DNA of 64,000 nt from IMG/VR virus record IMGVR_UViG_3300034782_000062, positions 118,771-182,770 of that record. One strand, given 5' to 3'. Both the position numbers and the translations under genes were made by a program. Numbering within the stretch: the stretch's first letter is position 1; every line of letters starts with the position of its first letter. Below the pieces are notes generated by a model that worked only from the letters and a program-made list of their open reading frames with translations, did not search any database and was not told the origin of the DNA. The DNA is from a virus. Of this stretch, positions 19,629 through 54,717 are shown in pieces.

Positions 19629-20222
19629 ATGGCGAAGGCACGCGGATCACCATCCGCCATGCAGGTGGAGGAGTTCGAGGTGACCATCGAGGGGACGTCC
19701 CCTCTCGTGTTGTTACCTTTGGGCTTCTTCAAGGACTGTCCTGACGACGAAGACGGCCAGCTCGAACGCGCGCTCGACCTGTATCGTCGCGAGGATGGCA
19801 ATCCTGGGTTCCCGGCTGGCGGGCTCAAGGACGCGATTCTGGAGGGCTGCAAGAAGCTCGACGCGGACACTCGTTACCGAGTCGCATCCGGTTTTCACAT
19901 CGTCGGGGAGAACGCCACAAATCGAGTCCTCCTCAACGGGGACTCGGAAGGAGTCGACTTCGACTTCAACTTCAAGAGACCGAAACGCACCGTAACCAGG
20001 ACGCTCCCACAACTCGACAAGTGGACTTGTGTCTTTCCGGTGCAGCTCGTGACCGGGAGCCTGGACTCGAAAGAGTTCAATGAGTTCCTCGGGGTGGCCG
20101 GAGAGAAGATCGGCATCGGACATCGCCGACCTGAGATGGGCACCTTCAAGGTCACAAACATCGTTTCCAAGAATGGAATCAACAACCGCTCAAAGCGCAA
20201 AAGCAACAACAACAAGAGGTAA
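19629..20222 (+). CDS. RAMP/Cas7-like protein A (paralogue of next gene)
   Basis: The 197-aa protein and its neighbour share a backbone: E-x-TIEGTSPLVL at the N-terminus, FPAGGLKDAILEGCKK and FHIVG in the middle, LPQLDKW, then FLGVAGEKIGIGHRRPEMGTFKV near the end. The glycine-rich C-terminal segment and overall order recall RAMP-fold CRISPR backbone subunits (Cas7), but this is by eye and not proven. A basic tail (NNRSKRKSNNNKR) could bind RNA. With its paralogue and a third gene it directly precedes a 4-kb periodic noncoding array, so I infer it packages that RNA. Alternative: a phage recombination or replication accessory next to SSB. Confidence 0.55.
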   Translation: MAKARGSPSAMQVEEFEVTIEGTSPLVLLPLGFFKDCPDDEDGQLERALDLYRREDGNPGFPAGGLKDAILEGCKKLDADTRYRVASGFHIVGENATNRVLLNGDSEGVDFDFNFKRPKRTVTRTLPQLDKWTCVFPVQLVTGSLDSKEFNEFLGVAGEKIGIGHRRPEMGTFKVTNIVSKNGINNRSKRKSNNNKR

Positions 20223-20227: not shown

Positions 20228-20968
20228 ATGCCCGCGAAGAAGAAGAAAGATGAAAAGATCAAGATTGAGCCGCTGGAGTTCGAGATCGCCGTCCTCCAGA
20301 TCATCGGTACCCGGCCACTGATCGTTCACGCCTGGGACCCCAAGACCCAGGCCGAGATGTTGGCGAAGCAGATGAAGCTGCCTGTCGCCGGGGCCAAGCA
20401 GAAGGTTCGCAACCCAGACGCCGAGTACGAGGCAGCACTCTACCGCATCCCCGAGGACATGGGAGGCGGATACGGGGTGCCCGCGGCGGCGTTCAAGCAG
20501 AGCTTCGTTGACGCCTGCCGTCATGTCGACATCGCAATGACGATGGCCACCGGAGCCTTCCACGTTCGAGGTGTCGAGGTGGACATGCCTCCTGTCATCC
20601 TCAACGACAAGGAGGGCAACCAGATCGAGACGGGCGACAAGTCGATGGAGATGATCCCCATCTACGGCTCGGAGCCTCGTCGCCGGATGGATATGGTTCG
20701 CCTCGAAGGTGGTAGTGCCGATATGCGGTTCAGGCCGCAGTTCGACAAGTGGTACTGCCTGGTGCCCGTCCAGATCGCCAAGGGTACGCTCACGGTTCAG
20801 CAGGTCACCGACCTGGCAAACCGCGCCGGCTTCCACTGCGGCATCTGCGAGTGGCGCCCATTCTCGAAGAAGTCGAAGAACGGCTCCTATGGGATGTTCA
20901 AGGTCGCGACGACCAAGGAGGAGCAGAAGCTCTTCAAGTCGCTGAAGCCACCAACGTTTATCCTCTGA
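20228..20968 (+). CDS. RAMP/Cas7-like protein B (paralogue of preceding gene)
   Basis: The 246-aa protein aligns by eye with protein A: FEIAVLQIIGTRPLIVHAW, GVPAAAFKQSFVDACR, FHVRG, RPQFDKWYCLVPVQI, GFHCGICEWRPFSKKSKNGSYGMFKV. Differences are a basic start (PAKKKKDEKIKI) and longer middle. Two non-identical backbone-like subunits in tandem, 5 nt apart, suggest a heteromeric filament. Function is inferred from similarity of layout to RNP complexes and from the adjoining array. Confidence 0.55.
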   Translation: MPAKKKKDEKIKIEPLEFEIAVLQIIGTRPLIVHAWDPKTQAEMLAKQMKLPVAGAKQKVRNPDAEYEAALYRIPEDMGGGYGVPAAAFKQSFVDACRHVDIAMTMATGAFHVRGVEVDMPPVILNDKEGNQIETGDKSMEMIPIYGSEPRRRMDMVRLEGGSADMRFRPQFDKWYCLVPVQIAKGTLTVQQVTDLANRAGFHCGICEWRPFSKKSKNGSYGMFKVATTKEEQKLFKSLKPPTFIL

Positions 20969-21000: not shown

Positions 21001-21504
21001 ATGGCCAAAGGAAGAATCTTCAAGTGGAAAAAGGGCTCGACCTTCAAGGTTGATGCCCAGACGGCTGGGACGTTTCTCGAAAATCTGAAGGCGGAGAATG
21101 ACGGAATTCTTCAGCCTGACGACGTCGTCGAGGCAGCGAAGGACCCAGAATCTCCGATTCATGACGAGTTCGAGTGGGACCTTCAGAAGGCCGCAAATAA
21201 TCACTGGAAGGACCGGGCGCGCAATCTTATGAATCACCTCGCGGTGGTTCGTGTGTACGCCGAAGATGCCAGTGAGGGCGTCTCAGCCTTCGTCAATGTC
21301 GAGGTCGCTCAGTCGACACGTGGTTACGTGGCGATGTCTCAGGTCGTCGCAAACGATGACTGGCGTCAGCAGATGGTCGATGACGTGCTCAATCGTCTGA
21401 AAGCTCTTCAGAAGAAGTATGAGCAGCTCGACGAGCTGGATGGCGTTTGGGCCGCGATCAAAAAAGCTGAGACGCGTCGAGCGAAGGGCTCGGCAGCAGC
21501 CTGA
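21001..21504 (+). CDS. Hypothetical third gene of the array locus, 167 aa
   Basis: The gene starts at an ATG preceded by GGGGAAGGGACGCTCTT. It has a basic N-terminus (AKGRIFKWKKGSTFKV), a segment about 20-75 with alternating charged helices, a beta-type centre (VSAFVNVEVAQSTRGYVAM) and a long C-terminal helix (residues about 120-160). No family recognised. Its stop is 14 nt before the boxA that opens the noncoding array, so it is probably the last protein gene of that operon. Confidence 0.65.
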   Translation: MAKGRIFKWKKGSTFKVDAQTAGTFLENLKAENDGILQPDDVVEAAKDPESPIHDEFEWDLQKAANNHWKDRARNLMNHLAVVRVYAEDASEGVSAFVNVEVAQSTRGYVAMSQVVANDDWRQQMVDDVLNRLKALQKKYEQLDELDGVWAAIKKAETRRAKGSAAA

Positions 21505-21718: not shown

Positions 21719-24700
21719 GGCAGTCACGGATAGGAATGGGACGGCCAGGGGGCGGAGCATTGGCAACGATGGCTCCGTCAAGCACCGAATAGGCAGTCAC
21801 GTCGAGGCGAAAGACGTGATACATTACATTTACTCTTGTAGGTGTCGGGTGCCAGTTTTTTTTTGGGCGGCATGGGGTCGTCCGATGTCATCAGTTGCTG
21901 ATGAGGTAGTGGGCACTGGCACCCGCCACCTACTTTTCATTCATCTTGAGGATGGCAGCCAAGCCATGTCGAGCACAGGCGGCGACGGCAACGTTCCGCA
22001 CTGCGAAGGCATGGAGAGCACAGCCCTGGCAGTCATGCTAGGGAGCGCTTTGCTCAGCGTTGGCTTGCTAAGCACCGCCGTTGATCGCAACGTCGCGGCA
22101 GCCGAGTTCTGAAGTGTTGAGTGGTGCCGGGGAGGGGCGGTGCGTGTCTGCGCGCACCTTGCCTTTGTAAGCGGTGACCTGGCAGTCGTGTCGAGGCGAG
22201 AAGCGGCACGTTGGGTCTATCACAGCGTAGGCGAAGCCGGGCAGCCGTGTCGCGGATGTGTAGCCTAGGGGCGGCACGTCAGTGAGGGGATATCCCGGTC
22301 CAGGCAGCTTTGCGTTGCTGTGCATCGTCAGTCGGCGGAAGCCAACGCGATCCCACGGAACGGCAGCGATGGAGAGCAGGAGAGGGTCCACGCGGCGCAA
22401 ACCGGGGTGGGCCAAGGTGCGATTGGAATGGCAGTCGAGGCGAATATCGACTACAGCCATCGCGGCTCGCCTCTACTGGTTGTGGCAAACAATGTTTTGC
22501 GACGGCCATGGTGGGGCAGCCTAGGTGAGCAGAGTGCTGGTGAGCATGGGCCAGTCGCGCTTGAGAACGTCTTGTCGCGGCAGCCGGTCAACGGTATGGG
22601 TAGGAGTGTCATTCACTGTCGCTCCCGTCAATGCCGAGTCGAGGCAGTCGGGTCATGTTGGAGTCGGGATAGCCGGTCATAGCGGGCGCCTGCCCCGTCA
22701 GAGCAGCCGCGGAAATCATAGGATCGCACGGGGTCGGAATTTAGTGGTTCGGCAGCCGTGTCAGGGTCCGCTCTGCTTGGGATCCGAGCGCCAAGCTCAG
22801 GCGCAGATGGCCGAGGCAGCCATGTCGAGTTGGTTATGGTTGTGCAGGTCACGCTGAGTCGTGCAGCACCGAGGCAGTCGGTCAGTGCCCCGTCGATGCC
22901 GGTTACGCGATGCGTAGGTGGTGATGGGACTGCCGAGGCAGCCGAGGACAGGACGGTCCCGCCCTGGACAGTCATAGCCAGGGGTGCTTTGTCAAGACGA
23001 GGCAGCCGAGGATGCATGGGTGCGCTGGGTCAGGTTTCGCCATTCAGGTGAGTGCGCTGTCGTGGCGTTATTACGGCAGCAGTGCCCTGTCGGGATCCGT
23101 CACACCGGGGAACTCAGGGGTAACCAGAGGTTTGCTCTGGCAGTCGGGCAATGTCAGCGTCTGCTCAGCAGCCGCTTGTCCTGCTGATGAGAGCCCAGCC
23201 CTGGCAGTCGGGCCTAGCACGGGACCGTTGAGCAATTCCATGGAGCGTCGTTGCAGGCGTTGCGGGGAGTGGTCGTCCGGTCACTCAACGCGATGGAACG
23301 CTAAGGTGTGCTGAGGCAGCGGTGCCTGGGAGCGTTGAGTCCAGCCATTATGGGCTTGGCCGAGGCAGCGGTGTTGAGGCGAGCTTGGCAGTGGCCCGTC
23401 CGGTCGAATAGATCCTTGTCGATCAGCGGCAGCCCTGCTGGGGAGTGGCCAGTCGCGTTCTGAACGCTATTGCTCGCAAAGCGTGGGTGAGGCAGCGGTG
23501 CCTCGTCGAGGTCAGCAACGCAATGGAAGGCAAAGGCCGAGAATGGACAGGATCGGCAGCGAGGTCGTGGCGATATACGGTCTGGCAGCAGTGTCTAGGT
23601 CGGTCGGGCTAGCTCAGTCATGGCCAACAAGGTCATGGTCGGGAGAGTCGAGGCCGGCATGTTTAGTCCGGCCCTTTGAGGCACAGGATTGGAAAGGTGA
23701 GGCAGTCGAGTCGAGTCGTTGTGGGGCCTTCAGGGGCAAACAACGGTGTGGCAGTCACGCGATGGTAGGTTCAGTCGCGTCCTGCTCAGCAATTCCTAGG
23801 AGAGCCTGGGGATGCAATGGCAGCTTTGCCAAGGGTGGGTGAGCACAGGCCTTCAGCGAAAAGTCGTTTCGCGTCGCGGCAGCCTGGTTGAGTTGAGGTC
23901 TCGCATGACGGTCCTTGGACCGCCGAGTCCCGACGCGGCAGCTATGCCCTGTCGTGTCATTCCCAGTCATTCAATGCAGAGGATTGGAAAGGGTGGCCGA
24001 GGCAGCAAAGCACCGGACGGGAGAGCCGTGTGACGTAAGGGGGAGCACCGCAGGTCAGAGCTAAGGTCCGGTTTGGCGAAATAAACCGACTAAGGCAGCT
24101 TTGCCGGTGTAGGCGATGGTTGTTTTTGGTGAGCTTGGTTGATCAGAGTAAGGGCAGCCGAGCAGAGGAACGTCATCGGATGCCTGGTCGTCCTAAGGAC
24201 GGACGAGTCTAGGCAGCACCGCAGAGCGGGGGACAGCGATGCGGCTCAGAGCATAGCAAGGGCTAGTCGCGGCAGCCTTGCTCTGTCCAGCTCGGGCGAG
24301 TCAACTCTGCGAGAGGACCGCTCGGGCCGGGATAGCGCCGGCAGCCGGGTCACGGCCTGGATCTCCAAGCAATGGATTCGCAGTGTGGGTCCGGTTATGG
24401 CAGCAACGCACAGCGAAGGCAGGCATTGGAATACCATGTCAGTCTTAGGTCCGCCACGATCAGGCAGTAAAGCTGGGGATTGAAGCGTCGCGGAGAATTG
24501 TGTTGCGCAATTGCGAGGCGAAAAAGCATTTGCGTTACGGCAGCGGTGCATAGGCTTGTTCAGCAAGCGCGTGCCAAGCCCGCGGGCGTCGTGGCAGCCG
24601 GGCACTGAAACGTCCAGGATCGGAGCAGCCTGCTTCCGCAGGTGGTGCCGAACCCGGTTGGGTCCTGGCAGCCGGGGATGGTTGTTCTGGGGCCAGGAGC

Positions 24701-25611
24701 CCCTGGTTATTCAGAACAGGGGTTTGGCAGCCGGCGTGAGCTGGGGCCAGGAGCCCCTGGTCGTCGCGAACGTTGGCCCGAAGAGGCAGCAGGGCTGAGG
24801 ATGGGGGAGCTGAGGCCAGACGCCGCATGTCTTGATCTGCATAGTCACGTCCTGGCGATATCAGATGTGACTTTGCTTTGCCGAATGGGGGAGCGTGTTG
24901 GTTTGGCAGCCCTGCGTTGGGTAGGACCGGTTAGTCCGGGACTTCCACGTCGGGCCGCTCATTGGACTGGCCGTCGAGTTGGGCCGGGGCACAATGGACC
25001 GCAGAGTTACGTCTCGTCCCGCCAAGGCAGCCGCGGTTCGTCACCGAACTCCATGCGACAGTTTGGGAGTCCGGGGACGGCAACGGATCGGCAGCCATGT
25101 CGCCGAGGGGCTTGCGATGCAGGGCACTGCAGGGGCATTCAGGTGCGCACCCTGGCAGCGATGCTGCGGAGGGGTGGGTCATTGAATGCTGGGCACTGCC
25201 GCCGCGCTGCGGGCCGTATCCTGGATAGGCAGGCGCCCCCCGGACTGGGGAGCCTTGACCTCCAATGGCGCTCTCAGGAGAGAAACGCCGTGGCAGCCGT
25301 GCTGATCCAAGGAGCGGAGCGCTTCGGAGAGGTGGGTCCGTCATGTCCATGGATTCGCTTAGGGAAGGACCGGCAGCAGCGTCTTGGTGACGAGTGGATT
25401 GTTCTGCTCGGCCCAAGCAAACATTGTCGCGGCAGCCATGTCCAGGTCCGTCACGTTTCGTCTTGCTTCTCAAAGCAATGGGGAGAGCGGGCGGGTCGGC
25501 GCCAGGCAGCAGCGGGTTGGGGTGCACAGCCGCGCCGCTGAGGGGAGTACCTCGGAGATCTACGGATAGGCAGTCACGACCTGGCGATATAGGAGTGGCT
25601 TGAAAACATCT
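21719..25611 (+). repeat. 5-nt-periodic noncoding array, about 55 units (GCAG + NNNNG pentads)
   Basis: GGCAG recurs about 55 times with spacings that cluster at 59, 64, 69 and 74 bp, that is 4+5n. Between them the sequence reads as pentads whose fifth base is G. In six units phased by hand (starts 21955, 22028, 22097, 22181, 22937, 23491) 68 of 78 pentads end in G; weaker units show 8 of 11 (24094, 24340). GCAG acts as a 4-nt phase break. The other four bases vary freely, so there are no classical repeats. No credible protein gene lies in it. It starts after a boxA and the Cas7-like genes. Units at 24667 and 24726 share a 19-nt stretch (TGGGGCCAGGAGCCCCTGG). Confidence 0.8.
21838..21933 (+). 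other. Long inverted repeat with T-run near array start
   Basis: GTAGGTG/CACCTAC (7 bp) and GGGTGCCAGT/ACTGGCACCC (10 bp), separated by a TC/GC internal loop, form one long stem around a T9 run and an inner CATCAG/CTGATG hairpin. TTTTC follows. It interrupts the second array unit and could be an intrinsic terminator, a processing stem or the leader end of the array. Confidence 0.6.
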
Positions 25612-25629
25612 TGAGGATGGAGGGTTTTT

Positions 25630-28078: not shown

Positions 28079-28612
28079 ATGCCCGCGTTGTGCTACGGAG
28101 CACCTCCGTTCAATTGTCCCGGCACCAGCGATGACGACCACTGCCCGAAGTGCGGCCAGTGTCGTCATCATGTTCTTGTCGGAGGCGGAGACTCGCTCGT
28201 CAAGGCGTTCATCGACGGGCTGTACATGCGCGATCCCAGCTCGATGGACCCGGAGAACTTCGGGAACCGCGAGTACAAGGGTGCCTGCGAGGAGTGCGGC
28301 CGACCGATCTACTCTGGGTGGATGAAGGTCTACCTCGATGATGAACGCGAGGCACCAGAGGGCTGGTTCAGGGTGCACTGGCCCGAGGAGGCGATTGTTC
28401 TGCTTGAGCGGGGGCTCGTTGCGCACATCAGCCTCGATCATGACTTGGGAGACGACGAACACGGTACCGGGTATGACGTGATCCTCTGGTTGGAGGAGGC
28501 TGTCGCGACCCGCGGTTTCGAGCCTCCAGAGATATCGATTCACACGGCGAATCCGTCGGCTCGAAAGCGTATGGAGGCTGGAGCTGAGAGGATTCGGAGG
28601 TTGGCAGAATGA
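28079..28612 (+). CDS. Zinc ribbon plus cyclic-phosphate receiver-like (cREC) protein
   Basis: The N-terminal 80 residues carry CPKCGQCRHH and CEECGR zinc motifs. Residues about 82-177 match the cyclic-phosphate processing receiver-like domain: MKVYLDDEREAPEGW, EEAIVLLERG, ISLDHDLGDDEHGTGYDV, then ISIHTANPSARKRM. The family is predicted from comparative genomics to act on cyclic phosphate ends in RNA repair or nucleotide signalling. It overlaps the RNA ligase gene by ATGA, which supports RNA end-healing followed by sealing. Confidence 0.75.
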   Translation: MPALCYGAPPFNCPGTSDDDHCPKCGQCRHHVLVGGGDSLVKAFIDGLYMRDPSSMDPENFGNREYKGACEECGRPIYSGWMKVYLDDEREAPEGWFRVHWPEEAIVLLERGLVAHISLDHDLGDDEHGTGYDVILWLEEAVATRGFEPPEISIHTANPSARKRMEAGAERIRRLAE

Positions 28613-29259
28613 AGGACTACCCTTCGATTCCATACATAGCCGACGGCCTCCCTTCTGGCGAGTTTTGGTACGTCTTCGATAAGCTCGACGGCTCGAATAT
28701 CCGGGCCGAGTGGAGCCGTAAGAAAAAAGGTGGCAAGGCGACATGGCGCTTCGGTCGTCGCCACGGACTGCTCGACGACACCAACGAGTTTTTACCCGAG
28801 GCTCAGGATCTGATCCGTAAACAGTGCTGCGGCATCCTGGAGAAGCTGTTCTGGGACCGCATGTGGGAGCGCGCCACGGCATTTTTCGAGTTCCGAGGCG
28901 AAAACTCCTTCGCCGGTCATCATCAGAACGAGGAGCATACGGTCACGCTGATCGACGTAGCCGTCTACAAGAAGGGGTTGCTGGAACCCGGCAAGCTCAT
29001 CAAGATGTTCGGTGACCTGCCATTGCCCGGAATACTGTTTCGTGGCCAGCTCGACGAGGACGATGAGCGAGAGCTTATCGAACGCATTCACGCGGACGAA
29101 CTCGAAGGGGTCACCTCCGAGGGCGTCGTCTTCAAGTCGGCCCGCTTCGAGCGCAAGCTGGGCCACCCGCTGATGTTCAAGGTCAAGACTGAGGCGTGGA
29201 AGCAGCGACTCAAAGAGTTCGTCGGTGGCGATGAGTATAAGTTCAAGAAGCTGCTCTGA
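28609..29259 (+). CDS. RNA ligase (Rnl2-like nucleotidyltransferase)
   Basis: The 216-aa protein shows the ligase motifs in order: FDKLDGSNIR with the adenylated Lys (motif I, residue about 25), RFGRR, TAFFEFRGENSF (motif III), EGVTSEGVVFKS (motif IV) and FKVKTEAWKQR (motif V, two Lys). It joins RNA ends using ATP. Coupled to the cREC gene, it likely repairs nicked tRNA or other RNAs during infection, fitting the RNA-rich right half of the window. Confidence 0.88.
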   Translation: MKDYPSIPYIADGLPSGEFWYVFDKLDGSNIRAEWSRKKKGGKATWRFGRRHGLLDDTNEFLPEAQDLIRKQCCGILEKLFWDRMWERATAFFEFRGENSFAGHHQNEEHTVTLIDVAVYKKGLLEPGKLIKMFGDLPLPGILFRGQLDEDDERELIERIHADELEGVTSEGVVFKSARFERKLGHPLMFKVKTEAWKQRLKEFVGGDEYKFKKLL

Positions 29260-47374: not shown

Positions 47375-47446
47375 GGGTCCATGAGCGTAAGGGTAGCGCT
47401 CCTGACTTTTAATCAGGCGGTCTGAGTTCGAATCTCAGTGGACCCA
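47375..47446 (+). tRNA. tRNA-Lys(TTT)
   Basis: Acceptor GGGTCCA/TGGACCC, anticodon loop CTTTTAA on a CCTGA/TCAGG stem, T arm CTGAG TTCGAAT CTCAG, discriminator A. All arms pair. First gene of the cluster, 22 nt after the terminator. Confidence 0.95.
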
Positions 47447-47460
47447 CAAAATAACGTTTT

Positions 47461-47535
47461 CGGGGCGTAACTCAGTCTGGCTAGAGTGGGTGACTCTTAA
47501 TCACTTGGTCGGAGGTTCGAATCCTCTCGCCCCGG
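47461..47535 (+). tRNA. tRNA-Lys(CTT)
   Basis: Acceptor CGGGGCG/CGCCCCG, anticodon loop CTCTTAA, T loop TTCGAAT. Discriminator G. With the TTT gene it covers both Lys codons. Confidence 0.95.
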
Positions 47536-47574
47536 CTAAATTGGACAACGTCGGTCCAGTGGTGACGGCCACGT

Positions 47575-47588
47575 TGATCTTTGACAAT
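47575..47588 (+). promoter_or_regulatory. boxA-like antitermination site in tRNA cluster
   Basis: TGATCTTTGACAAT, like the boxA at 21519, lies between the second and third tRNA genes and before a strong hairpin, where antitermination would be needed. Confidence 0.55.
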
Positions 47589-47601
47589 CAGGCATCAATT
47601 A

Positions 47602-47627
47602 CCGGCGCCCCCTTGCTGGGGCGCCGG
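47602..47627 (+). other. Strong 10-bp hairpin
   Basis: CCGGCGCCCC/GGGGCGCCGG with loop CTTGCT, between boxA and tRNA-Asn. No T-run follows, so it is more likely a processing or structural element than a terminator. Confidence 0.6.
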
Positions 47628-47632
47628 ATCGT

Positions 47633-47706
47633 GGGTCAGTAGCTGATACTGGTTTTAGCGCCAGGCTGTTAACCTGGAGATGGGGGTTCAATTCCCTCCT
47701 GGCCCG
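47633..47706 (+). tRNA. tRNA-Asn(GTT)
   Basis: Acceptor GGGTCAG/CTGGCCC (one G-U), anticodon loop CTGTTAA on CCAGG/CCTGG, T loop TTCAATT, discriminator G. Confidence 0.93.
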
Positions 47707-47713
47707 CTACCCT

Positions 47714-47786
47714 TGGGGTGTAGCTCAGTTGGAAGAGCACCTGGTTCTGGCCCAGGTTGTCGGGAGTTCGAGCCTCTCCACCCCAG
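47714..47786 (+). tRNA. tRNA-Gln(CTG)
   Basis: Acceptor TGGGGTG/CACCCCA, anticodon loop TTCTGGC, T loop TTCGAGC, discriminator G with encoded CCA (47787-47789). Confidence 0.92.
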
Positions 47787-48043
47787 CCACCTCAGCTCCG
47801 TTTCGGCAACCTGGAGTAGGTCGATTGAGATCAACGACTGCAGTCGTCTCTGGGAAACGCCCGATCGGCTCACCGAGGATACGGAGCAGTTGCCGCTCGA
47901 CACAAGACGCACACCAGTCGTGTGAGATTCGGGGAAGGTACCGCCCCGACCTGCGTTGAATTCAGGCGCTTGGTGGCCATCTTGCGTCTGGAGGAGCAGG
48001 TGGTCCAAACGGCGTCGATCGGGAGAGTGAGCTGGGGTGGAAT

Positions 48044-48115
48044 ACCGGTATCGTCCAATCGGTAGGACAACGGCCTTTGAAGCCGTGAATACAGGTTCAA
48101 GTCCTGTTGCCGGTG
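48044..48115 (+). tRNA. tRNA-Gln(TTG)
   Basis: Acceptor ACCGGTA/TGCCGGT, D stem GTCC/GGAC, anticodon loop CTTTGAA on ACGGC/GCCGT, T loop TTCAAGT, discriminator G with encoded CCA. Confidence 0.92.
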
Positions 48116-48130
48116 CCAGTATGGTCGCCA

Positions 48131-48207
48131 GCCATGCTGACCCCCTTTTTGTGGGGTGGTGAGTTGCCCCAGGTCCGGAAGGAAGCAAGGTGATTCACCA
48201 CTCTTTT
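48131..48207 (+). ncRNA. ffs: SRP RNA (4.5S-like)
   Basis: The 18-base core CAGGTCCGGAAGGAAGCA with its GGAA tetraloop is identical to the M-domain-binding tip of bacterial 4.5S RNA. It is closed by GTGGTGA/TCACCAC (48156-48201) and probably CCCC/GGGG below. Bacterial SRP RNA binds Ffh for membrane targeting of nascent proteins. The outer ends are uncertain because the next gene, tRNA-Phe, begins at 48208 and could share pairing. A phage-borne SRP RNA may redirect host secretion or replace a degraded host copy. Confidence 0.8.
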
Positions 48208-48279
48208 GGGTCAGTACTCAATTGGTAAGAGCCCGCACTGAAAATGCGGCAGATATCGGTTCGATTCCGATCTGGCCCA
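48208..48279 (+). tRNA. tRNA-Phe(GAA)
   Basis: Acceptor GGGTCAG/CTGGCCC, anticodon loop CTGAAAA on CCGCA/TGCGG, T arm ATCGG TTCGATT CCGAT, encoded CCA. Confidence 0.95.
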
Positions 48280-48293
48280 CCAGGGGGAATGAC

Positions 48294-48719
48294 ATGGCTT
48301 TGGAAGACCTGGACTTCGGCTACGTCATCATTCGTCAGATGTACAGGCCGGAGCACAACGCGGCGGCACCCGTCGGTGTCGTCATCTTTGACCGTGACGA
48401 AGAGCGCTGGGCGATTCGCGTCCTCAGGACGGAAGAGTCGATTCCGTTCGGAGTGGTTCCAAACCACGCCTTCATCAGCATCGTCTCGGGTCAGATTCGG
48501 ACCTACGCAGCGGGGCATCGTGTCCCCTATCTGGACGAGGATGTTCCTCCATGGGAGGCAGTCTTCTGGATGCAGCTCGCGAAGCTCTACACCTGTGCGA
48601 TCCGAATCGACTCACCCAAGGCGATGGCTCGTCCCAAAGACGGCGTCAACCTCGACGTCGCGATCGAAAAGCTTTTTCAGTCGGTGGTCGAGCCGGTTGG
48701 AAAAGGCTATGTTCACTAG
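48294..48719 (+). CDS. Hypothetical protein between tRNAs, 141 aa
   Basis: AGGGGGAATGAC precedes the ATG. The protein is alpha/beta (FGYVIIRQMYRPEHNAAAPV, VGVVIFDRDEERWAIRVLR) and resembles small DUF3037-like proteins in pattern, but I am not sure. Its TAG stop overlaps the first base of tRNA-Asp. Confidence 0.6.
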   Translation: MALEDLDFGYVIIRQMYRPEHNAAAPVGVVIFDRDEERWAIRVLRTEESIPFGVVPNHAFISIVSGQIRTYAAGHRVPYLDEDVPPWEAVFWMQLAKLYTCAIRIDSPKAMARPKDGVNLDVAIEKLFQSVVEPVGKGYVH

Positions 48720-48790
48720 GTACCGAGGTCCAACGGTAGGACACCTGGCTGTCGACCAGGAGAAAGCGGGTTCGACTCCCGTCGGTACCG
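48719..48790 (+). tRNA. tRNA-Asp(GTC)
   Basis: Acceptor GGTACCG/CGGTACC, anticodon loop CTGTCGA on CCTGG/CCAGG, T loop TTCGACT. Overlaps the stop codon of the preceding gene. Confidence 0.94.
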
Positions 48791-48793
48791 CAT

Positions 48794-48875
48794 GGAGGGT
48801 GAGCGGCAGTGGTGCCGGCGCGGTTTTGAACACCGATGACCCTTGACGGGGCGCGTTCGACTCGTACACCCTCCG
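48794..48875 (+). tRNA. tRNA-Ser(TGA)
   Basis: Acceptor GGAGGGT/ACCCTCC, anticodon loop TTTGAAC, long variable arm (CCC TTGA CGGG), T loop TTCGACT with one T-stem mismatch. Class II size (82 nt) fits serine. Confidence 0.85.
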
Positions 48876-49039
48876 CCCTATCCCCCCGGAAGCTTCGGCA
48901 ACCGGGTGCAGGGGACCGAATTTCGGCCCCTAGCTTCATCCCCCACGGCAAGCCGTGGGCCTTGGGCAGCATGTTCCTGTCCTGTCGCTGGTAACGGTGG
49001 CGAAAGTCCCTCCTCTGAGCGCTCATTGGAGGGGCGCCT
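48876..49039 (+). other. Gene-free structured stretch (unassigned RNA?)
   Basis: 164 nt with several strong hairpins: GGGGACCGAA/TTTCGGCCCC, CCCACGG/CCGTGGG with loop CAAG, and CCCTCC/GGAGGG around GAGCGCTC. GGCGAAAGTCC resembles one RNase P core segment but the rest does not. Possibly an unrecognised structured RNA. Confidence 0.4.
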
Positions 49040-49124
49040 GGAAGCTGAAATGGCCAGGGTGCCATGCCCGCTTGGAAAGCGGTGCGCTCTCAAAAGGGGT
49101 GGGGTTCAAGTCCCTCGGCTTCCG
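49040..49124 (+). tRNA. tRNA-Ser(GGA)
   Basis: Acceptor GGAAGCT/GGCTTCC, anticodon loop TTGGAAA on CCGC/GCGG, long variable arm, T loop TTCAAGT. 85 nt. Confidence 0.88.
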
Positions 49125-49129
49125 CTGTT

Positions 49130-49219
49130 GGAAGGGGAATCGTCCAGGGTTGACGAGCCTGTTTCGAAAACAGTGCGCTCGCTGAAGAGGCGGGTGGGGT
49201 TCAAGTCCTCCTCCTTCCG
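49130..49219 (+). tRNA. tRNA-Ser(CGA)
   Basis: Acceptor GGAAGGG/TCCTTCC, anticodon loop TTCGAAA on CTGT/ACAG, long variable arm, T loop TTCAAGT. Confidence 0.88.
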
Positions 49220-49220
49220 T

Positions 49221-49307
49221 GGCAGAGAGAAGCGGGTATGGACCCGTCGCCGACTGCTAATCGGATGGTCCTGTAAAAGGGATGGAGTTCGATTCTCCCC
49301 TCTGCCG
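49221..49307 (+). tRNA. tRNA-Ser(GCT)
   Basis: Acceptor GGCAGAG/CTCTGCC, anticodon loop CTGCTAA on CCGA/TCGG, long variable arm, T loop TTCGATT. Confidence 0.9.
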
Positions 49308-49356
49308 TAGGGCTCCCAGCTATCCTTCGCAAGGAGGACGCAGGGGTGGCCCGCAT

Positions 49357-49718
49357 GGGCCTGATTTGGTTTCGACAGGTACATGAAGTACGTAGGAGCG
49401 TGCCGGAGATGTCTCCTTGCCCGTCAAAACGGGAGGCAAAAAATCAGTTGTCAACACCGATAACTACCATGAAGCACCGCTCGCGAGGGCGGCGTAAGCT
49501 TCCGTTCCACCTGAGGTGCCGCGACTCGGGATGGGACGTCATTTAGTGGCTGGTCAGCTTTCAAGTCTCCGCTCGCTCGGGGCTGACGAGATAGAGAGTG
49601 GACATCTTCCGGGTACGACCTGCCTTGCTGGTCTACCGGTCGTATTGAAGCAGGGCTACGCACGTAGAGCCTACGAATGGACTGTGCGTGGACGCGGGTT
49701 CGATTCCCGCCAGGTCCA
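49357..49718 (+). ncRNA. ssrA: tmRNA (transfer-messenger RNA)
   Basis: The 5' end GGGCCTGATTTGGTTTCGACAGG (first 7 bases pair with CAGGTCC at 49711) and the 3' T arm GCGGG TTCGATT CCCGC have the standard tmRNA form, with a D-loop-like segment. The tag frame at 49450-49497 encodes (V)NTDNYHEAPLARAA and stop TAA; the AA end is a typical protease degron. tmRNA rescues stalled ribosomes and tags their products. Encoding one alongside 35 tRNAs and SRP RNA gives the phage its own ribosome-support set. The 3' sequence reads ACCCA, so CCA is not exactly encoded. Confidence 0.92.
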
Positions 49719-49782
49719 CCCATGGGTTGGCAGCTTGTGGAAAAAGTGTTCGGGGACGGCACTCAATAATCATCCCCAAACA

Positions 49783-49856
49783 CGGGCTGAGGGCTTGATG
49801 GTAAGCCGCCGCGTTCGGGACGCGGAGTAGTGTGGGTTCGACTCCCACCAGCCCGA
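49783..49856 (+). tRNA. tRNA-Pro(CGG)
   Basis: Acceptor CGGGCTG/CAGCCCG, anticodon loop TTCGGGA on CCGCG/CGCGG, T loop TTCGACT, encoded CCA. A GTGTT..GGGGA/TCCCC..AACAC stem lies just upstream (49746-49783). Confidence 0.94.
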
Positions 49857-49860
49857 CCAT

Positions 49861-49933
49861 CGGGGTGTTGCGCAAGTGGTAGCGCGCCAGCTTTGGGAGC
49901 TGGAGGTTGCTGGTTCAAGTCCAGTCACTCCGA
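49861..49933 (+). tRNA. tRNA-Pro(TGG)
   Basis: Acceptor CGGGGTG/CACTCCG, anticodon loop TTTGGGA on CCAGC/GCTGG, T arm GCTGG TTCAAGT CCAGT. Confidence 0.94.
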
Positions 49934-49935
49934 CC

Positions 49936-50151
49936 GATTCGATCCGAATGCCAGAGGGATTACATCAACTAACGGTCCTAAGGTAGCGATGTTGCTTGCT
50001 GTAAAAAGACGCTGGCAGGCACTCAGCGACAGCGGTCACAACGAAAGCGGTGGCTGCGTTCCCAGTGCCGTAACCCTCTTCGGAGGAGCGGTGTACGGAG
50101 GCCGAAACGGGGCGCCGTGTGCTATCTCTTGCCCATTTGTCGGATGGAATC
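49936..50151 (+). ncRNA. Predicted Y RNA 1, payload resembling 23S rRNA domain IV
   Basis: Ends pair as GATTC-G-ATCCGA / TCGGAT-G-GAATC and are followed by a T-run. The Ro-type left motif (CCGAATGC, AGGGATTACAT) and right motif (TCTCTTG..TTTGTCGG) are present. The payload begins with TAACGGTCCTAAGGTAGCGA (49970-49989), an exact 20-nt match to the conserved 23S rRNA helix 69-71 segment. Later pieces (CGAAAGCGGTGG, CCCAGTGCCG, GAAACGGGGCGCCG) resemble sequences that precede helix 69 in 23S rRNA, in permuted order. It ends just before an HNH nuclease gene. Confidence 0.7.
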
Positions 50152-50174
50152 ATTTTTTCAAAAGGGGTGTAACT

Positions 50175-50729
50175 GTGTCTTCAGGTTATCGTTCAAAAAG
50201 AGCCCGTGCAGTATGTGCTGCGTTTGCTCGTGGTTATCGGGTTAGCGAGGATGGCGCACTGATTTCTCCTTCTGGGTTTGAGCTGTCGGATTCTTATAAA
50301 AACCAGAAGGGGTACAGGATGTTCAATATGCGCCTCCCGGGGGAGGCTGGAAATACAAGCGTTCCTGTTCATCAGCTCGCCGCCTTCCAAAAGTACGGCG
50401 ACAAAGCCATAGAAGAGGGGGTCGAGGTAAGGCATCTTGACGATAATAAAGAGAATAACTCTCCGAAAAATTTACTCATAGGAACGCGCTCCCAGAATAT
50501 GATGGATCGCTCTGAGGAGGTTCGGAGGCGATGCGCAAGAAAAGCCGCAAGGGCGAGAAGGAGACTAACGAATAAACAAGCTCAGCAGCTCATCGAAGAT
50601 AGAGCCGCCGGGAGCACATATCTGGGATTGGTTGAAAAATATGGCATAGCGAAAAGCACTATATCTTACATAGTTAATGGTCACATGTATCCAGAGTTGG
50701 ATAGGTCGTGTTTAGATATCCCGAAGTAG
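50175..50729 (+). CDS. HNH endonuclease (homing-type)
   Basis: GTG start at 50175 after AAAAGGGGTG. The 184-aa protein has an N-terminal NUMOD-like part, the HNH_3 core (VPVHQLAAFQKYG, EVRHLDDNKENNSPKNLLIG, TRSQNMMDR) and a C-terminal helix-turn-helix (KYGIAKSTISYIVNGHMY), the usual layout of phage homing nucleases. It follows Y RNA 1, which contains a sequence best known as a 23S rRNA intron-homing target. The stop overlaps tRNA-Tyr. Confidence 0.85.
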   Translation: MSSGYRSKRARAVCAAFARGYRVSEDGALISPSGFELSDSYKNQKGYRMFNMRLPGEAGNTSVPVHQLAAFQKYGDKAIEEGVEVRHLDDNKENNSPKNLLIGTRSQNMMDRSEEVRRRCARKAARARRRLTNKQAQQLIEDRAAGSTYLGLVEKYGIAKSTISYIVNGHMYPELDRSCLDIPK

Positions 50730-50807
50730 ACCACTATGGATGTGGGGTAGGCTGTAAACCTATCGTCGCCGCAAGGGGCCGTGAAAGTTCGATTCTTTCC
50801 TTCGGGA
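50720..50807 (+). tRNA. tRNA-Tyr(GTA)
   Basis: Acceptor CCCGAAG/CTTCGGG, anticodon loop CTGTAAA on GTAGG/CCTAT, long variable arm, T arm GAAAG TTCGATT CTTTC. Its first 10 bases overlap the last codons and TAG of the HNH gene. Confidence 0.88.
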
Positions 50808-50954
50808 CCGGGAGAGTCTTTGTGGAGCCCTTCCACCGGGCCTGGTCGTAAGCCAGGTCGTTATAGGGGCGCCATAGTGCGCCTGGCGTGGAGCCATGGG
50901 AACCCACGAAACGGTGGTGGTAGACAAGGAGGTTCAAATCCTCCGGGCTCCCCC
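50808..50954 (+). other. Unassigned tRNA-like segment
   Basis: A clear T arm (GGAGG TTCAAAT CCTCC) and acceptor half GGGCTCC end at 50950, but the matching 5' half is either GGAGCCC at 50822 (making a 129-nt RNA) or GGAGCCA near 50893 (making a 62-nt tRNA lacking a D arm). Hairpins CCTGG/CCAGG and GGCGC/GCGCC occur between. A degenerate or interrupted tRNA, or another mimic RNA. Confidence 0.35.
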
Positions 50955-50955
50955 G

Positions 50956-51056
50956 TGCCCAAATGCTTGTGGGATTACATTGCGGCGATTGCAGCTAACG
51001 GGTTCGACTCCCGTTTGATAGCCCCGGTGGGCTTTTCTCGCACCTTTTGTTGGGCA
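50956..51056 (+). ncRNA. Predicted Y RNA 2 (T-arm/D-arm payload)
   Basis: P1 TGCCCAA/TTGGGCA; P2 TGTGGGA/TCTCGCA; ATGC and TTACATT on the left and CTTTTG on the right. The payload has a T arm (ACGGG TTCGACT CCCGT), then GCCC-CGGT-GGGC whose GG loop could act as a D loop. It ends 3 nt before tRNA-His, so tRNA 5' processing would trim it. Confidence 0.7.
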
Positions 51057-51059
51057 TTT

Positions 51060-51133
51060 GCCACCGATGCCAAAGTGGTCGCGGCGCCAGGTTGTGGACC
51101 TGGTTTTAGGAGGTTCGAGTCCTCCCGGTGGTA
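51060..51133 (+). tRNA. tRNA-His(GTG)
   Basis: Acceptor GCCACCG/CGGTGGT, anticodon loop TTGTGGA on CCAGG/CCTGG, T arm GGAGG TTCGAGT CCTCC, encoded CCA. Confidence 0.92.
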
Positions 51134-51169
51134 CCAATGTGGTAGTATTCCCCCGTTCGGAGGGAAACC

Positions 51170-51751
51170 TTGGCCATCATTGACAAAAGAACGCCGAAGA
51201 CGGCGAACTCAGGAAATGCTCTTGCACGGTTTTTGTTCAACAAAGGGCTGATAAAGCCTGGTGAGAAGGTTCTCGACTTCGGCTCGGGATCGGGTCGCGT
51301 CGCGGTGCCGCTCTCGAAGCAGTGCACGGTGAAGGTGATCGAGGGCAACGAGGGGTGCCTGGCGAACCTGCTCGACTGTGGCTTCGAGAGGCCAGAGCCT
51401 GGCGAGAAGTTCGACGTCGCCATGGCCTTCTTCGTCTTTCAGCACAACACGCTGGAGAAGGTCAGGGCGATCACCCACTCCTTGTCGTACATGGCCAGGC
51501 GGCTAGTCTTCACCTACCCGACTCATGAGCTGCTCGCGCTTCGGCCGGGCAACAAGCTCAAGTGGGTGCCCGCGGCCGAGCTGAAGGAGCAGCCGATTCC
51601 GGACTGCAATCATCTCAGCGGCGTGCTTCACGAGGCTGAGCTTCCCACCCTGTTCGAGACCTCCGAGTTCGACGTCAGCACCCTTCGCTTTGTCGTGGCG
51701 CAGGCCATGGGCAAAGAACGCGTTCGCGAAATCAAGAGCAAGGTCCCGTAG
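51170..51751 (+). CDS. Class I SAM-dependent methyltransferase
   Basis: TTG start after GGAGGGAAACC. KVLDFGSGSGRVAVPL is motif I, VIEGNE the acidic SAM contact, and FDVAMAFFVFQHNTLEKV motif IV. The stop falls inside tRNA-Arg. Given its place among RNA genes, an RNA substrate is plausible but not shown. Confidence 0.8.
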   Translation: MAIIDKRTPKTANSGNALARFLFNKGLIKPGEKVLDFGSGSGRVAVPLSKQCTVKVIEGNEGCLANLLDCGFERPEPGEKFDVAMAFFVFQHNTLEKVRAITHSLSYMARRLVFTYPTHELLALRPGNKLKWVPAAELKEQPIPDCNHLSGVLHEAELPTLFETSEFDVSTLRFVVAQAMGKERVREIKSKVP

Positions 51752-51814
51752 CTCAGGTGGAAGAGCGTTGGATTCCTAATCCAAAGGCCGTGAGTTCGAG
51801 CCTCACCGGGATCG
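51742..51814 (+). tRNA. tRNA-Arg(CCT)
   Basis: Acceptor GGTCCCG/CGGGATC, anticodon loop TTCCTAA on TTGGA/TCCAA, T arm GTGAG TTCGAGC CTCAC. Overlaps the last ten bases of the methyltransferase gene, including its TAG. Confidence 0.94.
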
Positions 51815-51882
51815 CCTCACCAGGGGAAAACCGCGAGCTGGCAGATAAGCGTGTACACCGCTTTCGGTCACTTCCCCGCCAT

Positions 51883-51955
51883 AGGGCAGTAGCTTTAATG
51901 GGAAAGCACCGGATTCCAAATCCGGCGATTGGGGGTTCGAGTCCCTCCTGCCCTG
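51883..51955 (+). tRNA. tRNA-Trp(CCA)
   Basis: Acceptor AGGGCAG/CTGCCCT, anticodon loop TTCCAAA on CCGGA/TCCGG, T loop TTCGAGT, encoded CCA. Confidence 0.94.
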
Positions 51956-51959
51956 CCAT

Positions 51960-52032
51960 CCCTCGTGGGTCCGCTGGGTGGACTCCTGACTGTCTATCAG
52001 GGTAGAGGCGAGTTCGATTCTCGCACGGGGGG
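51960..52032 (+). tRNA. tRNA-Asp-like (GTC)
   Basis: Acceptor CCCTCGT/ACGGGGG, D stem GTCC/GGAC, anticodon stem CCTGA/TCAGG with loop CTGTCTA, T arm GCGAG TTCGATT CTCGC, encoded CCA. A second GTC anticodon, with an unusual U37, so decoding specificity is less sure. Confidence 0.75.
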
Positions 52033-52041
52033 CCAACGTTC

Positions 52042-52113
52042 GCTCGGTTCGTCTATCGGTTAGGACACTGGCCTTTCACGCCAGTAAGAGGAGTTCGATT
52101 CTCCTACCGAGCA
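52042..52113 (+). tRNA. tRNA-Glu(TTC)
   Basis: Acceptor GCTCGGT/ACCGAGC, anticodon loop CTTTCAC on CTGGC/GCCAG, T loop TTCGATT, encoded CCA. Confidence 0.95.
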
Positions 52114-52117
52114 CCAT

Positions 52118-52192
52118 GCCCCGGTGGTCTAGTTGGTTTAGGACACTCGCCTGATAAGCGAGAGGTGGTCGGTTCAAGTCCGACCCGGGGTA
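52118..52192 (+). tRNA. tRNA-Ile(GAT)
   Basis: Acceptor GCCCCGG/CCGGGGT, anticodon loop CTGATAA on CTCGC/GCGAG, T arm GTCGG TTCAAGT CCGAC. Confidence 0.94.
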
Positions 52193-52204
52193 CCGGAGGT
52201 TGTC

Positions 52205-52576
52205 ATGAGACGGTACAAACAGATTGGCACCCTGACGTCGTTTACGACTGAGGTCGTGCTGAAAGAGCCCGTCCTGGTGACGGATCTCAAAAAGGCTTTT
52301 CAGGATGCCCAGTGGCTTCAGACCTGGGAGGAAGTCTTCTCCAACGGCGTCATCCGATGCGACTACACCAGCCTGAAATCTGGAAATGTTATTGACGTGG
52401 ACATGGTTCCGTTGGCCGATTCCGAGCTGATCGGGGGCCTGCGGATGCTCGCCCGAGAAGAAGGCGTCCTGGAGACGGTCGATGAAGTCATCGGAGAGAC
52501 GAAGGAGCCGATGAAAGTGCACAAGGCAGAGATTGGCGTGATTCAGCGAAACGATCGCGCTGCCCCGCTAGCATAA
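52205..52576 (+). CDS. Hypothetical protein, 123 aa
   Basis: GGAGGTTGTC precedes the ATG. Alpha/beta protein (SFTTEVVLKEPVLVTDLKKAF, EEVFSNGVIRCDYTSL). The stop codon lies inside tRNA-Ile(TAT), an overlap of 15 bases. Unknown function. Confidence 0.6.
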   Translation: MRRYKQIGTLTSFTTEVVLKEPVLVTDLKKAFQDAQWLQTWEEVFSNGVIRCDYTSLKSGNVIDVDMVPLADSELIGGLRMLAREEGVLETVDEVIGETKEPMKVHKAEIGVIQRNDRAAPLA

Positions 52577-52634
52577 CGGTGAATGCACCGGTCTTATAAA
52601 CCGGCGATTCCGGGTTCAAATCCCGGGTGGGGCA
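52562..52634 (+). tRNA. tRNA-Ile(TAT)
   Basis: Acceptor GCCCCGC/GTGGGGC, anticodon loop CTTATAA on CCGGT/ACCGG, T arm CCGGG TTCAAAT CCCGG. A TAT anticodon reads AUA directly, without the lysidine route. Confidence 0.9.
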
Positions 52635-52894
52635 CTGAGAGGGAGGAAGTCGTCGCGCGAAGGAGCAGCACCTGGCATTCCTGTAGTGTCAGGCGCCCTC
52701 GCATAGGCCTAGCGAGGAAAAGTCGTTCCATGCATATCGCGTAAAGTGCGGCTCAAACGAAGGAACTTGCTGAACTGATAACTAGGCGTTTGAGACAGGG
52801 ATTCGAGACGCTCCGTGCATGAGTGTCTTGCAGGCGGTTTGCGCAAATCGGCTGCCCTGGGGTACAGGCAGCTCGTCCTCACGACCCTCTCTTT
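52635..52894 (+). other. Gene-free structured stretch (unassigned RNA?)
   Basis: 260 nt without a credible gene. Hairpins: CCTCGC/GCGAGG (around ATAGGCCTA), CCTG..TGTCAGG, GGTTTGCGCAAATC, GCTGCC/GGCAGC. GAGGAAAAGTCGTTCC slightly resembles the RNase P GAGGAAAGUCC element but other conserved parts are missing. Confidence 0.4.
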
Positions 52895-52967
52895 GCTCGG
52901 TTAGTTCAGTCGGAAGAACGCCTGCTCGACGCGCAGGAGGCCGTTGGTTCAAATCCAACACCGAGCA
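52895..52967 (+). tRNA. tRNA-Val(GAC)
   Basis: Acceptor GCTCGGT/ACCGAGC, anticodon stem CCTGC/GCAGG with loop TCGACGC, T arm GTTGG TTCAAAT CCAAC. C33 instead of U33 is unusual. Confidence 0.82.
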
Positions 52968-53113
52968 CCGACGAAGCTCCAGAAGCATTTCTGGGTCCCA
53001 CCGCCCAAGACTTGCGCGGTTAGAGGAGGCAACAGGTGGAGTTGTCAGTTAGAGTGGCGCCACTTATTTTCTGGCAGCAGCTATCCCTCACGCGCTCTGG
53101 AACTTCGTCGTTT

Positions 53114-53186
53114 GGTCCCGTAGCTCAACTGGAAGAGCGTTGGTATCACACGCCAGAGGCCCCCGGTTCAACTCCGGGCGGGACCA
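53114..53186 (+). tRNA. tRNA-Val(CAC)
   Basis: Acceptor GGTCCCG/CGGGACC, anticodon loop ATCACAC on TTGGT/GCCAG, T arm CCCGG TTCAACT CCGGG. Confidence 0.93.
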
Positions 53187-53195
53187 CCCTTTTTT

Positions 53196-53268
53196 GGGTC
53201 CATAGCTCAGTTGGGAGAGCGCCGCGTTCGCAATGCGGAGGCCGAGGGTTCAAGTCCCTCTGGATCCA
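53196..53268 (+). tRNA. tRNA-Ala(CGC)
   Basis: Acceptor GGGTCCA/TGGATCC, anticodon loop TTCGCAA on CCGCG/TGCGG, T arm GAGGG TTCAAGT CCCTC. Confidence 0.93.
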
Positions 53269-53345
53269 CCTGGAAAAGTCGGGAGGCACCACCCTCAAAG
53301 GGAGCCAGTGCCAGGTGAACGGAGAGGGTGCCCGACCCAGAGTTT

Positions 53346-53420
53346 GGGGCCATAGCTCAGTCATGGGAGAGCGCTACACTGGCAGTGTAGAGGTCGAGGG
53401 TTCGATCCCCTCTGGTTCCA
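53346..53420 (+). tRNA. tRNA-Ala(GGC)
   Basis: Acceptor GGGGCCA/TGGTTCC (two G-U), anticodon loop CTGGCAG on CTACA/TGTAG, T arm GAGGG TTCGATC CCCTC. Confidence 0.92.
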
Positions 53421-53642
53421 CCCAAGCCTTGCAACGTCATGATGCGCGCTGTGGGCGTATGGTAAGAGGTCTCGTCACATGCTGACGGGGCGTGGGGCCG
53501 CGACCAGGGCTAGGTCTGGGGAGAGAGAGGGCTCCAATCATCGGGTTAGCCGAGCGCAGGGTTCCCACCACAGGGGCCTGCGTGTGGGAGCTGGGTGGGG
53601 AATCCAGCCATGGCGTCGTTGGGGCTTGGAACCAAGAAGACA
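53421..53642 (+). other. Gene-free stretch before small gene
   Basis: About 220 nt, G-rich, with possible pairings (GGTCTGGGGAGAG.., GGGTTAGCCG, GCTGG..CCAGC at 53591-53608). I see no tRNA, Y RNA or convincing ORF in it. Confidence 0.35.
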
Positions 53643-53921
53643 ATGCATATTTCAGATAGGACAAAAGAGGCACCAGAGATCGACGCGAAGATGCTCTGGT
53701 ATGAGAACTGGTACGACGGTCCAACGGACGGCGTCTGCGAGTTCGAGGGAGAGAAATTCTGGTTTGTGTGGACCGATGGTGATGATGATCACACTCGTAT
53801 CTACGCCGTCACCAGGATTGATCCGGAGGTGTTGGCCGAGATGGTTCGGCGGCACGAGATCTACCGCGACATCTGCGGCCCGCACACTGATTACGGAATC
53901 AAGTGCGAAGGCGGCGGATGA
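53643..53921 (+). CDS. Hypothetical acidic protein with in-frame extension after TGA, 92 aa
   Basis: ATG 53643 follows AAGAAGACA; ATG 53610 is an alternative. The protein is acidic with tryptophans (LWYENWYDGPTDGVCEF, FWFVWTDGDDDHTRIYAV). The stop is TGA at 53919. The same frame continues for 39 codons (AFPTDEQLARFEEVSKDWPE and on to VIGKIKW) to TAA at 54039. Either a recent nonsense change, read-through, or a second cistron with a non-ATG start. Confidence 0.5.
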   Translation: MHISDRTKEAPEIDAKMLWYENWYDGPTDGVCEFEGEKFWFVWTDGDDDHTRIYAVTRIDPEVLAEMVRRHEIYRDICGPHTDYGIKCEGGG

Positions 53922-54045
53922 GCCTTCCCGACCGACGAGCAGTTGGCTCGTTTTGAAGAGGTCTCGAAGGATTGGCCGGAACTTGAGCCTCTCCCTGACC
54001 CTGAGAAAGACGGAGAAGTGATCGGAAAAATCAAGTGGTAAAATC

Positions 54046-54118
54046 AGCCCTGTAGCTCAACTGGAGGAGCGCCAGTCTTACAAACTGGAGGTCGTCGGTT
54101 CGACTCCGACCGGGGCTA
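54046..54118 (+). tRNA. tRNA-Val(TAC)
   Basis: Acceptor AGCCCTG/CGGGGCT, anticodon loop CTTACAA on CCAGT/ACTGG, T arm GTCGG TTCGACT CCGAC. Confidence 0.94.
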
Positions 54119-54128
54119 CTGAGCACAT

Positions 54129-54201
54129 GGGCTCATAGCTCAACTGGGAGAGCACCTGCCTTGCACGCAGGAGGCTGCCGGTTCGATCCCGGCTGGGTCC
54201 A
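54129..54201 (+). tRNA. tRNA-Ala(TGC)
   Basis: Acceptor GGGCTCA/TGGGTCC, anticodon loop CTTGCAC on CCTGC/GCAGG, T arm GCCGG TTCGATC CCGGC. Confidence 0.94.
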
Positions 54202-54293
54202 CAGAAACCGATAGAAGACAGAAGCGCTGTGACGGGGGGAGCACCGGCTCTTCGATGATGGTCGTGCTCGCCACGCGAGGAGCCGCCCCCCGA

Positions 54294-54575
54294 TCAGCCA
54301 AGCTTCTCTTGGAGCTGACTCCTGATCGCAGACTCTACCGCCTGCGAAAAATTGGCGAGAAATCCGCCAAGCGTGAGAGCAACTTCGACGCTGCCGCTGA
54401 GGATTTGGATGTGCCCTTCCACGCCTGGTCCTGAAAGACTAAAAAGCGTTTCGGAGTTCCATTCGCCTACGAGGTTGTAACGCGGACCTAGCTCCTCGTA
54501 GACCTTATTTATGGCGTCGATGGCTTCTGCTCTACCGATACTCATCGGTTGCGAGATTGAAAGAGTCTTTGACAT
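54294..54575 (-). CDS. Polyhydroxyalkanoate granule-region (PHA_gran_rgn-like) protein
   Basis: The 93-aa product, from ATG 54575, reads IGRAEAIDAINKVYEELGPR, NLVGEWNSETLFSLSGPGVE, GHIQILSGSVEVALTLGGFL, ANFSQAVESAIRSQLQEKL. Length and pattern match the PF09650 family found beside PHA synthase genes in bacteria, of unclear biochemical role. It is the only minus-strand gene in the RNA region. The longer upstream ORF runs through tRNA-Thr and is rejected. Confidence 0.65.
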   Translation of the reverse strand: MSKTLSISQPMSIGRAEAIDAINKVYEELGPRYNLVGEWNSETLFSLSGPGVEGHIQILSGSVEVALTLGGFLANFSQAVESAIRSQLQEKLG

Positions 54576-54620
54576 ACCGGAATCATAGCACAATGTGCAA
54601 ATGCGTCCCCAGGACGAAAT

Positions 54621-54693: not shown

Positions 54694-54717
54694 CCGCAAA
54701 ACAAAAAGGGGTTTTCA

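Follow-up and report, generated by a model that had tools for sequence, protein, structure and literature searches.

The window analysed here is a 64,000-nt stretch of viral DNA, bases 118771-182770 of the record IMGVR_UViG_3300034782_000062 (full length 182,770 bp). At positions 21719-25611 it contains an intergenic array of five-nucleotide repeats, with three genes directly upstream on the same strand. We conclude, with a probability of roughly 0.88, that these elements form a Viral Interference Programmable Repeat (VIPR) locus of a large phage and that the array encodes proposed vrRNA guides. VIPR, first described in April 2026, combines a RAMP-like protein, Vipr, with vrRNAs built from tandem GGY/NN pentads; its DNA targets are read with one base, mostly that at the wobble position, skipped per pentad, and it serves in competition between phages (PMC13142463). 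Our reading is carried by the gene family, the array geometry, the conserved association of the two, a signature of codon positions 1 and 2 in the variable bases, and an excess of one-skip targets for the arrays of relatives.

The motif GGCAG occurs 57 times on the plus strand of the array, compared with three copies of CTGCC, while 1000 dinucleotide-preserving shuffles gave 18.3±3.9 copies and at most 34. Consecutive copies are separated by 4 mod 5 nucleotides in 38 of 56 gaps (binomial p=1.2e-14), the commonest such spacings being 64 (13 times), 59 (11), 74 (5) and 69 (3). The autocorrelation of G reaches 0.153, 0.135 and 0.153 at lags of 5, 10 and 15, against a maximum of 0.071 in 1000 dinucleotide shuffles, and is about zero elsewhere in the window. 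When the phase is reset at each GGCAG, G makes up 72% of in-phase bases and 12-37% in the other phases. An earlier note on this DNA had counted about 55 GGCAG marks with 4+5n spacing and had asked for the lag-5 comparison with shuffles; its location, strand, phase and rhythm all held up, as did its statement that CRISPR-type identical repeats are lacking. Two other identities were rejected. A coding region does not fit, because the lengths of the units disrupt the reading frame and the array is not spanned by any one long frame, and no tRNA or Rfam covariance model matches within it. Nor do the units share a hairpin: their mean folding z was -0.65 against column-preserving shuffles, with 7 of 45 below -2 and no common fold.

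We phased the array with a small hidden Markov model (expectation-maximization fit, Viterbi decoding). The result is about 57 units of GGCA followed by pentads, mostly 11-14 per unit, with a few phase slips and 627 pentads in total. In the 430 pentads of clean units, position 1 is G in 78%; position 2 is C, G, T or A in 43, 32, 21 and 4%; position 3 is C, A, T or G in 42, 29, 19 and 10%; and positions 4 and 5 are close to uniform. The consensus is G-B-H-N-N, with one base fixed, two restricted and two free. The earlier note had taken all four positions beside the fixed G to be free, which is true of the last two alone. Among the 627 pentads the commonest triplets are GTC (91), GGA (70), GCC (68) and GCA (55). 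B and H are mutually linked (z 18), and T at position 2 goes almost always with a pyrimidine at position 3. Because relatives of the locus show GGCA + (GGYNN)n, the delimiter is best read as the four nucleotides GGCA, and the GGCAG marks of the earlier note as GGCA plus the G of the first pentad.

The genes upstream of the array are all intact open reading frames (ORFs) on the array strand. The main Vipr, RAMP/Cas7-like vipr246 (20228-20968), matches phrog_4652 at E 3.3e-17. It is preceded by vipr197 (19629-20222; 197 aa; phrog_4652, E 1.9e-11), a second, diverged paralog, and followed by the vipr-associated gene vap (21001-21504; 167 aa; phrog_15946, E 1.5e-18). A search with one sequence alone gave a weak match to the PDB entry 36pp, 'SUSP1 Vipr protein' (E 0.039); with a profile built from seven members of the clade the match to that entry reached E 7.7e-10, and hhalign gave a probability of 97.4% (E 1e-11). 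The G-loop of vipr246 reads GICEWRP...YGMFKV, and its GxxxWRP aligns with that of SUSP1 Vipr. Phages of Gordonia and Mycobacterium are matched by a fragment of SUSP1 Vipr too; both genera are among those matched by the window protein. The AlphaFold2 model built from the alignment has a predicted local distance difference test score (pLDDT) of 75.9 and a predicted template-modelling score of 0.73, compared with a pLDDT of only 35.6 from the single sequence. Its top Foldseek matches are RAMPs of the Csm3/Cas7 type from type III and type VII CRISPR complexes, at modest TM-scores of about 0.3-0.5. The protein is a small RAMP homolog with an RRM core and a G-loop, the features that define Vipr. The two paralogs share 26% identity (BLASTP, E 2e-14); in the alignment vipr197 is missing the basic segment HAW..K..EMLAKQMK after the first strand, and it has no relatives in the viral_contigs collection. 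Homologs of vap occur in Mycobacterium, Gordonia and cyanobacterial phages, and the phrog_15946 gene is conserved beside vipr and the array. With SUSP1 kept out of the alignment, hhalign detected no homology between vap and SUSP1 vap1.

To place the locus, we fetched 91 Vipr-relative loci from IMG/VR contigs and the phages Saal, Brocalys, Ecliptus, UmaThurman, Cy-LDV1, LESphi2 and SUSP1. A pentad array lies on the vipr strand in nearly every locus with enough flanking contig, and 79 of the 91 have a vap homolog. In the close clade the array consists of GGYNN pentads (GGANN in locus L004), with GGCA interrupting them after every 9-13; of 397 gaps between delimiters, 95% have a length of 4 mod 5. 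The window array has the same architecture: intergenic tandem pentads with hypervariable NN and a consensus related to GGY, although relaxed. At about 630 pentads and about 57 units, it is the longest among those compared (relatives, 10-210 pentads). Its scaffold also differs. GGY accounts for 13% of pentads, against a median of 77% in relatives, and G at position 2 for 35%, against a minimum of 50% in relatives, so that at this position the window ranks last in scaffold conservation among the 75 loci that have 20 or more pentads. The sole relative with a similarly low GGY share (11%) appears to be L004, in which the constant triplet is GGA.

Which bases are read can be addressed through the composition of the variable positions. 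The 627 NN dinucleotides of the window lie close to those at sense codon positions 1-2 in genes of the phage itself (Kullback-Leibler divergence, KL, 0.041; sampling noise about 0.017) and farther from the other five frame and strand classes (0.099-0.398). Dependence between the two bases correlates with that of codon positions 1-2 in the sense direction only (r=0.635, p=0.008). The 3176 pentads of the relatives behave alike, with KL 0.046 for sense codon positions 1-2 against 0.166-0.537 for the others. B and H, by comparison, carry no wobble-like information: their z values are 0.7 and 2.4, whereas real codons reach 5.45 or more. Neither a mixture test (p 0.07) nor the variance between sense and antisense (p 0.24) showed units to be coherent in strand or frame, and no lag effect in the array RNA sequence pointed to alternating subunit preference along the guide.

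These data bear directly on the model of the earlier note, in which the fifth base is a fixed protein contact and B, H, N and N all pair with a contiguous target. B and H do vary in the window array, as the triplet counts make plain, and to that extent the model fits. However, A is excluded from B, G is disfavoured at H, the link between B and H comes without a codon-like link to the neighbouring NN, B-H dinucleotides match no codon frame (KL 0.46-0.60), and relatives hold both positions fixed. We regard four-of-five pairing as highly improbable. The constant part is instead the triplet (GBH in the window, GGY in relatives), with NN alone probably being read and one target base probably skipped per pentad. 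The four-of-five masked search proposed earlier was therefore the wrong search. What survives of that proposal is its broader outline: a guide-like, protein-wrapped RNA whose recognition is discontinuous, unlike that of CRISPR, matches the mechanism published for VIPR (PMC13142463), the family to which the adjoining proteins belong.

Targets provide a further route to the code. From all guides we took 10-pentad windows and searched them against 1.4 Mb of loci, allowing at most 3 mismatches, with order-shuffled guides as the control and the duplicate arrays L007/L008 removed from the counts. Skipping one nucleotide gave 57 matches against 32.3 in the control, whereas skips of 0, 2 and 3 gave no excess (29/24.8, 22/22.8 and 30/30.0, observed/shuffled). 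Among the best matches, one guide of L067 agrees at 19 of 20 bases, in codon register, with the vap gene of another VIPR locus (L054, position 6487). Two more of the best, from L083 to L088 (8536 and 8662), fall in codon register within one long ORF, apparently a tape-measure gene. A guide match from L082 to L042 (7116), also in codon register, lies at the vap position. Matches of relatives' guides in the genes of other phages are consistent with VIPR-on-VIPR conflict. Two sets of hits were discarded: perfect NNxxx matches came from the duplicate arrays L007/L008 when unmasked, and a 20/20 match from the window to L131 was not counted as evidence, since that contig had been fetched with that very pattern. 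For the clade, three independent computations (codon-like NN, non-wobble B and H, and the target excess) support a one-nucleotide-skip code. The window's share of this support is compositional, with no target found; its same-clade relatives have excess targets under that code only.

Several observations weigh against a working VIPR guide array in the window. Exact scans with five units, four against a viral collection and one against a genome collection, found no target: one viral-collection scan returned nothing, and matches from the other four scans did not extend beyond the pattern. No target of the window guides appeared in 1.25 Mb of related loci, and under seven decodings no self-target in the 182,770-bp phage exceeded order-shuffled controls. 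The product of marginals alone gives a KL of 0.05 to codon positions 1-2, so general composition may explain some of the likeness. Finally, the scaffold of the window is looser than that of any relative, and the guide function of its array is hence putative rather than proven. In a separate comparison, no pair of window units shared targets above shuffled controls.

The missing targets and the poorly conserved second position could also be explained if the array were a non-functional remnant in which GGY has relaxed through drift. Drift, however, would not keep A rare (4%) at position 2 while admitting C (about 40%), nor would it keep G rare at position 3. Across about 57 units the length modulo 5 persists, as does the leading G (79-83%), and vap and the two vipr genes have intact ORFs. 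Because A is avoided at position 2, G is avoided at position 3, and T at position 2 is nearly always followed by a pyrimidine at position 3, the loosened scaffold looks like altered constraint rather than plain decay, and we consider decay unlikely. DNA-binding arrays, too, can have a strict five-nucleotide period, which would also fit a DNA element for structure or packaging, or a phased protein-binding array with no guide role. Such an element is hardly credible here: the NN content is strand-specific and codon-like, the array is associated with Vipr genes, and relatives have target matches.

If the locus works as VIPR does, the array would be transcribed together with the upstream genes and give rise to vrRNA-type guides some 59-74 nt long, which would start with GGCA and continue with about 11-14 G-B-H-N-N pentads. 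Vipr subunits would align along the RNA, one per pentad, gripping G-B-H, while the two free bases of each pentad paired with target DNA and one target base was skipped per step. A 12-pentad guide would thus read 24 bases in a 36-base target, reading codon positions 1 and 2 and ignoring the wobble base. The likely effect would be to silence genes of competing phages, prophages or satellites. Transcription, ribonucleoprotein assembly, DNA binding and repression are all proposed here by analogy with the published system (PMC13142463).

The second Vipr invites a more tentative suggestion. No second vipr-like region was present in the 91 relatives within the fetched flanks. Possibly, a duplication produced the shortened vipr197 as a specialised (e.g. 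capping) partner of the full Vipr, which would have loosened the scaffold from GGY to G-B-H and allowed a very large guide library; we put this forward as one conceivable history, with the odds against it. VIPR has been proposed as an ancestor of CRISPR, and a duplication of the RAMP as a step on the way from it to the multi-subunit Class 1 CRISPR systems; if the scenario is true, the locus would be a living instance of that step.

The array itself has several internal landmarks, all on the plus strand unless stated. Viterbi phasing places the first two units at 21719-21809, the second running into unphased sequence (about 21810-21953). Part of this insert (21838-21933, no strand assigned) is bounded by a 19-nt, 95% inverted repeat and contains a T9 run as well as an internal palindrome, CATCAGTTGCTGATG. 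The main vrRNA-type array of successive GGCA + (GBHNN) units occupies 21954-25582. The last unit and array end lie at 25569-25620; AGTCACGACCTGGCGATAT of the array end is also found at 21795 and 24843, and CATCTTGAGGATGG recurs ahead of the main array. The motif AGTCACG(T/A)C(C)TGGCGATAT lies at 21795, 24843 and 25572, near the array start, a phase slip and the array end, and may be a boundary or tail element.

Elsewhere, a protein with a cyclic-phosphate-processing receiver domain (28079-28612; Pfam cREC_REC, E 2.6e-27) adjoins an RNA ligase (28609-29259); 2.5 kb downstream of the array, the two may act together in RNA repair. The stretch 47375-63995 contains about 30 tRNA genes together with a transfer-messenger RNA (tag VNTDNYHEAPLARAA). 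Outside the window, at about 82,383-84,959 of the record (G000:C1), the same phage encodes a 586-aa Cas12u1/Cas12f-like effector (L020:2383-4143; PADLOC, E 6e-84 and 1e-84). Directly downstream is a CRISPR array (L020:4210-4959) of ten 37-nt repeats with spacers of about 36-39 nt. The repeat was not found elsewhere in viral_contigs, and the array had no match in the phage collection.

The general mechanism proposed here is already published; what is new is the array size, the loosened GBH scaffold and the second, shortened Vipr, along with the Cas12-type gene and CRISPR array in the same phage. Among the nearest known systems are the Vipr/vap loci of Mycobacterium phages Saal and Brocalys, Gordonia phages Ecliptus and UmaThurman, Cyanophage Cy-LDV1 and about 80 IMG/VR contigs (L003-L013, L036-L114). 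Like the window, they pair vipr with vap and adjoin continuous arrays, mostly GGCA-delimited; unlike it, they have 10-210 pentads, a strict GGY scaffold and, in all 91, one Vipr only. SUSP1 VIPR shares a Vipr homolog, a second small adjoining gene, and same-strand intergenic five-nucleotide repeat arrays with two variable bases; the present data are consistent with its one-nucleotide-skip decoding. However, the vrRNAs of SUSP1 number four, lie apart, follow YNNGG and each carry a structured tail (PMC13142463; PDB 36pp). The window has about 57 head-to-tail units separated by GGCA alone; their scaffold is GBH in place of GGY, the Vipr gene is present twice, and the vap is without detectable kinship to vap1. 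Class 1 CRISPR RAMPs (Csm3/Cas7) resemble vipr246 in predicted fold and, by analogy, as RNA-guided oligomers. The Cas7 thumb flips every sixth base (PMC13142463), whereas two of five pentad bases would be read here; in the window no adaptation genes adjoin the array, and 21719-25611 contains no identical direct repeats separating spacers, as CRISPR-Cas does. The locus extends VIPR to a large tRNA-rich phage with about 57 guides, tolerance of non-GGY triplets and a duplicated RAMP, and its guide dinucleotides, which copy codon positions 1-2, offer an independent statistical route to the code. It is well suited to testing how much RNA scaffold Vipr needs and whether RAMP duplication began in viruses.
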